DNA of 64,000 bases from Haliclona indistincta (Eukaryota; Porifera; Demospongiae; Haplosclerida; Chalinidae), in the NCBI GenBank assembly GCA_964017065.1, contig OZ024784.1:15915152-15979151 (forward strand), written 5' to 3'. This document shows positions 31,224 through 34,527 of the stretch, one piece after another (position 1 is the first letter of the stretch; each line of letters opens with the position of its first letter). The notes under the pieces are model-generated. The model ran no database searches, was not told the DNA's origin, and saw only the letters and a list, made by a program, of their open reading frames with translations. Position numbers and translations under genes: made by a program.

Positions 31224-34200
31224 ATGGACTTTTCCAGCAACCTTTTGTTTGCTCCAGAAGAAGGAGAGGAAGAGTATGAATACATCGAGGAGAGCCAGTA
31301 CAACCACACAGTAACTGGTTACTCAACCGTATCAAGTGACTACAAAGATGATGGGGAGGTAAGCTGTTACTATAGCCAAAAAATACAATGTAAGTTTTTT
31401 GCAGACTTGTCTACTGGATATTCTCGACACTGCTGGTCAGGAAGAATATTCCTCAATGAGAGACATGGTAGGCAATGTAGCTGCAAGCATATAATCACTG
31501 ACTCAGACTCAACTATCTACAGTATGTGAGAGATGCAGATTGCTTCGTGATTGTCTACTCAATTACGGACATGAGCTCATTTGTGGAAGCACAGGCGATC
31601 CATGATTGGACTACAAGATTGAGAGACCAGACTATGCCAGCAGTAAGCAACAGTTGCTCTCTGATGTACAAGGACAGTGTACATGATCTATCATTTAACA
31701 GGTGGTCTGTGGAAATAAATGTGATCTTGAGATTGAAAGAAAAGTTTCTCAGCAAGAAGGGGCCGCCTTTGCAGCAAGCATTAGTGCACCGTTCTTTGAG
31801 ACATCTGCCAAGATGGGAATCAATATATCAGAGGCAATCCATGAACTAATCAGACGAACACCAAGACTGAGGGGAAAAGAGTACAAATTGGTAATTCTTG
31901 GTGAGTTTGACTCTTGATTTTTCTTCAATTTCATCCAATTTTCTCAGGTTCAGGAGGTGTAGGGAAGTCGGCTATATGTGTTCAGTTTATTCAAGGGCAC
32001 TTTGTCGACCAATATGACCCTACTATTGAGGACTCATATCGTAAACAAGTTGTAGTCAAAGGAATCCCAAAGAGCACTGCAGGTGGAAAGAAGAAATCCA
32101 AAGGAGCATCAAGCTCTGCAAGCAGTAAGTATATGACAGAAACAAAACACCATGAAAACACCAACACCATAACTAATCATGTTATTCCAGCATACTCACA
32201 TGTTTGGTGATTCTATTGTCTATGTGTAATTTTATCATCACTGTATTCATTGTCTGGAATGTGTATTGATTTTGGCAACTATTGTATCTACAGAGAGTGG
32301 AAAGTCAAGAAGCTTTCTTGGAAGCATTTTTCATCGCAAGCAGAAGACCTCAACAGTAGAGGATGATCATGAGAGTAGTGAAGATACGGAAGTGGCTGCT
32401 GCTGCACCTCCAGCAAAACCAGCTGGGAAGAAGGTCAAAGTACATCGCAGCAACATCAACGCAGTTGTTCTACAGCTTGGTTGTCTGGGTAGAAATGGTG
32501 GCTTGGTATCAGACACTGCTCCCATATACTGTATAGAGTGCCAGGCAGCAGTTTCCTGTATCTCACAGCTCAGTGATCCTAATGGAAGAATTGACTGGAT
32601 TTGGTAAGCTATGATATCAATATAATTATGTTGTGTATCATTGTCATGTTTTGCAGTGAGTTCTGTGGACAAGCCAACTTTTCCTTGCCAGCAGGAGCAG
32701 TTGTCCCATCAGAATCTGCTGTTGAGTATCTCCTTGAGCCAGCAACACAACCAGAAGAGGAGGAAGAAGATGAAAAGGAAGACAACGATGTTGCTGCTAA
32801 AAAGAATCCAGCAGTGTCTAACAAGAGTAATTTGGTGATATTTGCTGTAGATGTCAGTGGATCAATGGCCACTACCACTGAAGTACCAGCTCTTCAAGGT
32901 TAACATTCTGTAGTTTGTGCTAGCAACCCGTGTGAGCTCATTCATTCTCATGTAGCCCAGTGGACTTCAGTCACTGGAAGAAATAATACCAGCTCTAGCT
33001 CTCGTTATGTCTCCCGACTAGATAGTATCAAGGAAGCTATCAGTAGACAAATGGAACATCTATCTGTCACTGCTCCAGCAAGCAAAGTGGCCTTAGTTGC
33101 ATTTGACAACAAGGTCCAATACTATGGTGATGGCCTGCTCCAACCACAGCAATTAGACAGTGGAGCACTAGATGACTACCATGAACTGCTGAAGAAGGGG
33201 AAGTCTGTTGGGAGTGACCTGTCACTACGACAACTGACAGATTCTCTCAGGTACCATCAATAACTATTGTGAGTTTATTGTGTGACAATACTTGCAGTGA
33301 TCTACAGCAGAAGGTTTGCAATCTTCACACTGGAGGTACCACTGCTCTCGGGCCAGCTTTAGCTCTTTGTGTTGGAATGGCTTCTAACTATCCTTCATCT
33401 GAGATAATTCTGTGCACTGATGGAGTCTCCAATGTTGGAGTAGGAAATCTAGACCATGGAAGTTCTGGAAATTCTTTCTACACAACTGTAAGTTTGCAAG
33501 ACAAGTAGTAAATGCATGTTTAAAAGCTAATTTTCTATAGATGGGAGAGCATGCTCAAGTGTCTCATACAGCTATCTCTATCCTGGGAATTGAAGGAGCT
33601 AGCTGTGCCATGGAAGTGTTGTCTTCTTGTGCAGCTATCACTAGCGGCACTGTCAATATTCTCCACCCACTTGAAATGGTACGACAGATCAGAGCTATAT
33701 CACAGAACCCAGTTGTGGCAACGGAAGTAGAGGTTAGAACGACTCATTAAATATATCAACTATGACTACAATACTATCTGATGTATACAGGTCACCTATA
33801 TTATGCATCGTGCAGTGCGACCTGATCGTAAGACTGCCACCTCCTCTTCACATGTTAATGTTGTTAAGGAGTCTATTGGCAATGCTACCAAAGAGAGTGA
33901 TACAAGCTTGACTTTCAATGTAGACAAGAAGAAGCTAAAAAATATTACCTCACTTCCGTTTCAAGTAATTGCTTACCATACCTGCTTAACACAATATTAT
34001 GTGAATACAATAGGTTCAGATAAGATATCGGAGAAAGGATGGTTCCAAATGGTTGAGAATTCTTTCTCATACCAAGAACATATCTAGCAATCGCTCAGCT
34101 GTAGAGGAAGGTGCTAATGTAGCTGTGCTTGGTGTGGCAGCTGTACAGCGATCAGCACAACTAGCAGCAAAAGGGAAACTACAAGAAGCTAGAGAAAACC

Positions 34201-34527
34201 TGTAAGAACAATAAACAAACTGTTTGTCATGCTTATCAACTCAATTCATTATTCTTCTCTAGCCATGCAATAGAGAGGGTCATGCACAGAGGTGCCCTCA
34301 CTGACCAGCAACAAGAAGAACATGCCAATTACCGTGACATGTTTAACACACTTGATGTTGGGATTAAAGATGGAGCAAAAGGAGACTCAGCAGCAAAACT
34401 ACTTCACCGCAGCAAGAATGCTCATTTGGGCCAACTTCTCTCTGGAGAAGCCAAGAGAGAACTAGTGGCACAACGCAAAGCAGATGATGCTGTTTTCCAG
34501 CAATACTACAGCTACAAATTCAACTGA
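31224..34527 (+). CDS. Circularly permuted Ras GTPase with Sec23/24-like zinc finger and vWFA domain
   Basis: Thirteen exons join in frame to 849 aa: 31224-31358, 31405-31467, 31523-31642, 31702-31900, 31948-32124, 32294-32603, 32657-32898, 32956-33250, 33298-33487, 33541-33732, 33791-33964, 34014-34201, 34263-34527. The Ras motifs come in rotated order: G3 DTAGQ (53-57), G4 NKCD (111-114), G5 ETSAK (139-143), then G1 GSGGVGKS (173-180) and G2 YDPTIEDSY (195-203). The old C- and N-termini are joined by [16 protein letters not shown] Lys/Ser linker follows, then a C..C...C..C zinc finger (YCIECQ, WICEFCGQAN) of Sec23/24 type, an acidic linker and a vWFA domain ([27 protein letters not shown]). 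The C-terminal part ([19 protein letters not shown]) resembles the Sec23 trunk. No CAAX box. This matches the architecture named 'circularly permutated Ras' in Dictyostelium. Confidence 0.94.

Follow-up and report, generated by a model that had tools for sequence, protein, structure and literature searches.

A sponge cpRAS-VWA gene and the probable place of its permuted Ras-family GTPase in a loop of a Sec23/Sec24-type scaffold

Proteins in which a circularly permuted GTPase of the RAS family (cpRAS) is joined to a four-cysteine finger and a VWA/Sec23 trunk were described by Elias and Novotny in 2008 as the cpRAS-VWA kind. In the accessible portion of that paper (PMC2430557), the GTPase motifs are ordered G3-G4-G5-G1-G2, the proteins are about 840-970 residues long with an N-terminal region of 40-66 residues, and the distribution is scattered, including the sponge Amphimedon queenslandica; VWA relatives without the GTPase also exist. 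The subject here is a gene of this kind in a 64,000-nucleotide stretch of Haliclona indistincta DNA (contig OZ024784.1, positions 15,915,152 to 15,979,151, forward strand), hereafter the window. An earlier note on this DNA had seen in the gene a relative of the Dictyostelium circularly permutated Ras proteins, which the match to the published features upholds, and had valued it as a complete animal copy. That novelty was overrated, since the accessible text of the 2008 paper already describes this architecture and counts a sponge among its carriers, and the databases contain many copies from animals. The architecture has been known since 2008; what is new is evidence that the GTPase sits in a loop of the scaffold.

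The same portion of the 2008 paper argues that cpRAS contradicts the claim that the GTPase fold permits only one circular permutation, and it, too, holds no assay of GTP binding or hydrolysis (PMC2430557). As far as their accessible text goes, other papers mention cpRAS in passing, in a citation, an annotation table or an expression list (PMC8296547, PMC3505798, PMC4082629, PMC11764893, PMC5560681, PMC5125639); among the matches listed, a search of the open-licence PMC literature gave such entries and no functional study. The family is known but barely studied.

The scaffold and the probable site of the GTPase

When the coding region is spliced by hand at intron consensus sites (Table 1), its 13 exons give 2550 nt with no internal stop and one terminal stop, encoding an 849-residue protein. 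All 12 introns have GT-AG borders; 11 are 46-61 bases long and the remaining one 169. The swap is written in ordinary spliced exons, as the earlier note had it. In the protein, the permuted Ras motifs are followed by a C4 finger, then by a VWA domain whose MIDAS residues are complete, and last by a beta-sandwich and a helical tail ending in YSYKFN. Using the family cut-offs of Pfam, the protein matches Ras (two stretches), Sec23_trunk (E 7e-9) and VWA_2 (E 6.2e-7), while zf-Sec23_Sec24 (18.3 bits, cut-off 25) and Sec23_BS (16.9, cut-off 33.5) fall below. The finger and the intact DVSGS described earlier are borne out by cysteines 311, 314, 335 and 338 and by DVSGS with T529 and D555.

Of the scaffold parts, the trunk alone passes its Pfam cut-off in the window protein itself; in a homologue and a relative, profile and fold place finger, trunk, beta-sandwich and helical domain in Sec23/Sec24 order. 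The C-terminal part matches the Sec24A profile (E 4.6e-21), and the best fold matches are Sec23/Sec24. By profile and fold, then, this part is a Sec23/Sec24-type scaffold, so that the earlier term "coat-like" holds as a likeness only. The only NCBIfam match above the curated cut-off was small_GTP for the homologue P0009, with none for the GTPase-less P0192. Separate Sec23_trunk genes are present in the same genome. At G000:C4:12288949-12551308 many exon matches to the Sec23_trunk profile cluster, likely a tandem family of VWA-type genes; tblastn of the scaffold and four GTPase-less relatives against 4 of the 26 places there (L009-L012) gave nothing at E 1e-3.

Insight into the position of the GTPase comes from the GTPase-less relatives. 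Many of them carry a conserved N-terminal segment, M[DE]FGS.FVY, shortly ahead of the finger, which suggests that in the cpRAS proteins the GTPase was inserted into a scaffold loop. The segment itself appears to belong to the Sec23-like scaffold: it aligns with the first residues of Sec23/24 chains (model residue 1 with Sec23A residue 17), and it is ordered in both structure models (pLDDT 98 and 92). The gene is, with high probability, a cpRAS-VWA (CPRas1-type) gene whose product is a Sec23/Sec24-core scaffold holding a Ras-family GTPase in the loop that leads from the first barrel strand to the pre-finger strand. The scaffold would consist of the first barrel strand, the C4 finger, the VWA trunk, the beta-sandwich and the helical domain, and the swap would place both GTPase ends at the opened strand 2-strand 3 hairpin, an arrangement suited to a domain held in a host loop. 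The GTPase had earlier been called "fused to" the scaffold; "inserted into" is the better term because the N-terminal segment appears to belong to the scaffold.

The conserved start could instead be a separate short motif of some other use. The region is handled as lacking homology in the accessible 2008 text (PMC2430557), an M[DENQSH]F start is missing in 19 of 35 GTPase-less proteins, and the linker after the GTPase has low confidence (about 51-53) in the homologue model. This reading is nevertheless unlikely, as the segment is ordered and aligns to Sec23/24 chain starts, as relatives keep it where there is no GTPase for it to serve, and as the pTM of 0.91 for the whole 824-residue homologue model suggests a fixed domain arrangement in that protein. 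A pattern for the pre-finger strand was discarded as too loose (54 of 102 cpRAS and 25 of 31 GTPase-less proteins). The intron phases, 0 at codon 45 and 1 at codon 231, give no support to an origin of the insert by shuffling of a symmetric exon module. Insertion into the scaffold leads to predictions that can be put to the test: the scaffold should depend on its first ten residues for folding, should keep its fold when the GTPase is taken out, and should change its partners with nucleotide state.

The permuted GTPase as a candidate switch

The motifs of the window protein follow the order G3-G4-G5-G1-G2. In matches to PDB Ras chains, residues 43-159 of the window protein correspond to the later part of normal Ras and its residues 165-209 to the earlier part; Ras and Rap chains are also the best PDB matches to the domain. 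Rearranged to canonical order, the domain shares 80 of 161 aligned residues with L004, a Rap-like protein encoded in the same genome, and fewer with Rab- or Rho-like ones. Exon 4 runs from just upstream of NKCD through ETSAK to KEYKLVIL, and the codon for the first P-loop glycine is shared between exons 4 and 5, so that the P-loop stands at the start of exon 5. The motif order, the intact motifs and the exon boundaries are thus as first described, with the added detail of the split codon.

Conservation was counted over the best 120 listed of 430 homologues, which were found at E <= 0.001 among 7986 scored candidates. P-loop residues G173, G175, G178, K179 and S180 are present in all 120, as are the effector loop residues D, P, T, E and D. 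In Ras numbering, the Gly12 position is among the invariant ones, the Gly13 position holds Gly in 97 homologues and Ala in the other 23, and Gln61 is Gln in 112 of the 113 sequences filled there. The N, K and D of G4 are found in 119, the finger cysteines in 117-119, and DxSxS, T529 and D555 in 119. The residues required for GTP binding and hydrolysis are present, which would allow the window protein to perform both. From the near invariance of Gly12, Gln61 and the Ras effector loop it is inferred that the protein is likely a regulated GTP switch whose action passes through the scaffold.

In the proposed mechanism, the switch regions, which are apart in sequence, would meet in the fold to form a Ras-type GTP/GDP switch whose nucleotide state alters what the Sec23/24-like scaffold binds; the VWA domain would bind a ligand via a metal at its complete MIDAS; and membrane contact, if any, would come from the basic-hydrophobic linker rather than from a lipid-modified C-terminus. 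Taken as a whole, this mechanism is put forward as slightly less than an even proposition. Considerably less probable is a structural or nucleotide-locked GTPase, in which the permutation or the docking to the scaffold blocks regulated exchange and no switch cycles. Degenerate second copies in Oopsacas and similar proteins indicate that the fold can persist without its motifs, and opening of the strand 2-3 hairpin has been argued by others to harm folding (cited in the accessible part of PMC2430557). However, the near invariance of binding, hydrolysis and effector-loop residues in the first copy of the 120 homologues would be needless for a mere structural part.

The idea that the linker makes a membrane or partner contact comes from a basic-hydrophobic pattern present in 59 of 121 linkers (window included), compared with 28.3 +/- 4.3 in 200 shuffles (maximum 43); this is a weak test, because the pattern was written after viewing the linkers of the window protein and some relatives, and the sequences are related rather than independent. 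Membrane contact through this motif is possible. Neither a CAAX box nor N-myristoylation fits as an anchor of the family: among 106 near-full-length homologues, a CAAX-position cysteine (at -4) occurs in none and a single terminal Cys in 23, and an MG start, as for N-myristoylation, in one. The absence of a CAAX box had been noted before; the statement drawn from it, that membrane attachment must work differently, assumes that there is membrane attachment.

Family, descent and surroundings

A plain motif search finds G3-G4-G5-G1-G2 in 108 of the 120 homologues and the canonical order in none; the remaining 12 have a missing motif or a stray match. Ten of these lack at least one motif by the search patterns, five of the ten being N-terminally truncated and without G3; P0034 begins at G5, and P0009 (from Sycon, structure-modelled) deviates in G5. 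The other two are P0047, where a stray NKxD precedes G3, and P0003, in which a truncated copy is followed by a complete permuted one. The spacing between the serine of ETSAK and the P-loop's first glycine varies little: 102 homologues have 31 residues, all 120 fall within 30-35, and the window protein has 32. Within the window, tblastn with both Ras halves and with a canonical Ras-like protein from this genome detected only this gene (31402-32069), and thus no normal Ras N-terminal half upstream of exon 1. Judged from these sequence comparisons, the permuted order is a fixed and old feature, given the order of the PDB matches, the motif order and constant spacing in homologues, and the lack of another Ras piece in the window. 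That two genes have been read as one, through the assembly or the gene model, is barely conceivable, and the earlier exclusion of an assembly join holds: no transcript of this genome was seen, but several of the homologues with the same order come from transcript collections, the join lies inside exon 4, and there is no second Ras half nearby.

Eight of the 120 homologues (P0016, P0017, P0022, P0029, P0031, P0043, P0045 from Oopsacas minuta, and P0078) contain a further cpRAS-like copy within the linker, its order permuted in the same way. The second copy of P0078 retains P-loop and effector loop (domain E 3.8e-27); the others, that of Oopsacas included, are degenerate (E 2e-8 to 1.4e-3).

The nearest protein among the matches listed is 63% identical. 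Proteins named "circularly permutated Ras protein 1-like" come from molluscs, echinoderms, lancelets, a nemertean, a brachiopod and the sponge Sycon ciliatum; under other names the family includes proteins of the annelid Owenia, the glass sponge Oopsacas minuta, Capsaspora, Acanthamoeba and dictyostelids. In fish entries, the name "circularly permutated Ras protein 1" is no guarantee of a Ras domain: P0154, P0156, P0162, P0163 and P0172 have none in their listed Pfam annotation (checked here with Pfam for P0156).

A quick tree of the scaffold, with the GTPase left out, had 72 rows: 39 cpRAS (the window protein and 38 of 102 complete homologues, sampled as every third sequence with the named ones added) and 33 of the 35 GTPase-less proteins, the other two being too short. 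All 39 cpRAS rows fall in a clade of 42 (SH-aLRT 99), together with the GTPase-less P0130, P0135 and P0136, which start in the apparent linker and may be truncated models. Gain and loss of the GTPase require a minimum of 3 changes, 2 of them forced by starred branches, compared with a shuffle mean of 24; the window protein belongs to a starred set of 23 cpRAS rows, among them proteins of glass sponge, lancelet, echinoderm and mollusc origin. One gain of the insert with few losses is favoured by this tree. Sec23/24 operate with a separate GTPase, Sar1. A fuller account, somewhat more tentative than the mechanism above, is that the GTPase was inserted once, early in eukaryotes, into a loop of a Sec23/24 core, which made a single machine of switch and scaffold, a counterpart in cis of Sar1-Sec23; the permutation would have been kept because it joins the GTPase ends at the strand 2-strand 3 hairpin for the host loop, with later tandem duplication in some lineages (as in the glass sponge) and decay of the second copy.

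In the genome itself (144 Mb, 46 contigs), a whole-protein search returned this locus, canonical Ras-like genes and two fragment copies of the last exon; from this limited first look at the matches, the gene is likely single copy. The fragments are a 103-base copy, 96% identical to part of the last exon, at G000:C1:14780508-14780609 and G000:C1:14682259-14682360 (L022, L023); the 3.1 kb compared between these two places match at 100% identity, in opposite orientation. A plasmid search with the last exon, of little use, found nothing.

Table 1. Features of the cpRAS-VWA gene, in window positions
Feature	Position	Strand	Basis
Whole coding region, 13 exons, 849 residues, stop included	31224..34527	+	Spliced translation, GT-AG introns
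Exons 1-7	31224-31358, 31405-31467, 31523-31642, 31702-31900, 31948-32124, 32294-32603, 32657-32898	+	Splicing
Exons 8-13	32956-33250, 33298-33487, 33541-33732, 33791-33964, 34014-34201, 34263-34527	+	Splicing
N-terminal segment, residues 1-11, proposed first strand of Sec23-like beta-barrel	31224..31256	+	Common start in cpRAS and GTPase-less proteins; models
Acidic variable stretch, residues 12-42, entry side of insert	31257..31349	+	Sequence; weaker confidence in homologue model
cpRAS GTPase domain, residues 43-211, interrupted by introns 1-4	31350..32063	+	Pfam Ras in two stretches; PDB Ras chains in swapped order
G3, DTAGQ (53-57)	31426..31440	+	Motif, conservation
G4, NKCD (111-114)	31714..31725	+	Motif, conservation
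G5, ETSAK (139-143)	31798..31812	+	Motif, conservation
Helix 5-strand 1 join, within exon 4	31849..31899	+	G5-to-P-loop spacing in homologues
G1, P-loop GSGGVGKS (173-180), first codon split by intron 4	31900..31970	+	Motif, conservation
G2 and effector loop, YDPTIEDSY (195-203)	32013..32039	+	Motif, conservation
Basic-hydrophobic linker motif, residues 232-250, across intron 5	32124..32349	+	Pattern count against shuffles
Strand before finger, residues 282-294, exit side of insert	32443..32481	+	Aligned with DTN(I/V) strand of GTPase-less relatives
C4 finger, four cysteines, across intron 6	32530..32666	+	zf-Sec23_Sec24 below cut-off; cysteine conservation
VWA (Sec23 trunk), residues about 394-590	32832..33579	+	Sec23_trunk, VWA_2; MIDAS residues
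DVSGS (400-404)	32850-32864	+	MIDAS
T529	33341-33343	+	MIDAS position
D555	33419-33421	+	MIDAS position
VWA end and beta-sandwich, residues about 591-720, boundary approximate	33580..34076	+	Sec23_BS below cut-off; homologue fold
Helical C-terminal domain, residues about 721-849, no CAAX, boundary approximate	34077..34524	+	Homologue-model helices

Elsewhere in the window, an open frame of 1584 residues at 22788-27539 (+) has LRR, COR-A, kinase and WD40_2 matches (LRRK/Roco-like), with an ankyrin-repeat frame just upstream (22109-22636, +). The minus strand carries an uninterrupted 983-residue frame with full CSE1/CAS exportin domain matches (40292-43240), intronless unlike the cpRAS gene. Two DUF3504 frames at 45640-46909 and 48526-49506 (+), one of which also matches phage integrase weakly, together with an adjoining QRICH1 match likely represent an element of tyrosine-recombinase type, and three FMN-dependent dehydrogenase frames at 6891-7685 (-), 8476-9054 (+) and 11892-12707 (+) are likely a local gene family.

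Comparison with known systems

The YRG/YlqF proteins (YawG, RsgA) are likewise circularly permuted P-loop GTPases, but they belong outside the RAS family and have the order G4-G5-G1-G2-G3, with the bond opened elsewhere (order from the accessible part of PMC2430557); the window protein, with G3 ahead of G4, is not of this type. Nor is it a canonical prenylated Ras, given its permuted order and its C-terminus. The archaeal ArnA-ArnB pair (PDB 8s05) has no GTPase, and its core is divided between two proteins. The GTPase-less VWA relatives, such as the fish "circularly permutated Ras protein 1" and the ciliate-like P0192, have the same scaffold, and many have the N-terminal segment, but they lack the Ras domain.

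Sec23 and Sec24 have a C-terminal gelsolin-like domain. With these COPII proteins the window protein shares the order of finger, VWA trunk, beta-sandwich and helical domain; unlike them, it has a permuted Ras in a loop and a full DxSxS/T/D metal site, and it appears to end after the helical part. In the homologue model, helices extend from about residue 690 to the C-terminus, most Sec23A rows align to about 617-621, and no gelsolin-like domain was seen, although none was searched for itself.

The closest system is cpRAS-VWA of the CPRas1 type (DdiCPRas1), which, in the accessible part of its description, has the same motif order, RAS family, finger and VWA/Sec23 trunk, and a sponge member. The window protein has TIE in G2, 849 residues, 42 of them ahead of the GTPase (with the boundary as set here), a four-cysteine finger before the trunk, and descent together with other cpRAS in the scaffold tree. 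There is no difference in domain order; the N-terminal region, without homology in that part of the paper (PMC2430557), is read here as a part of the scaffold.
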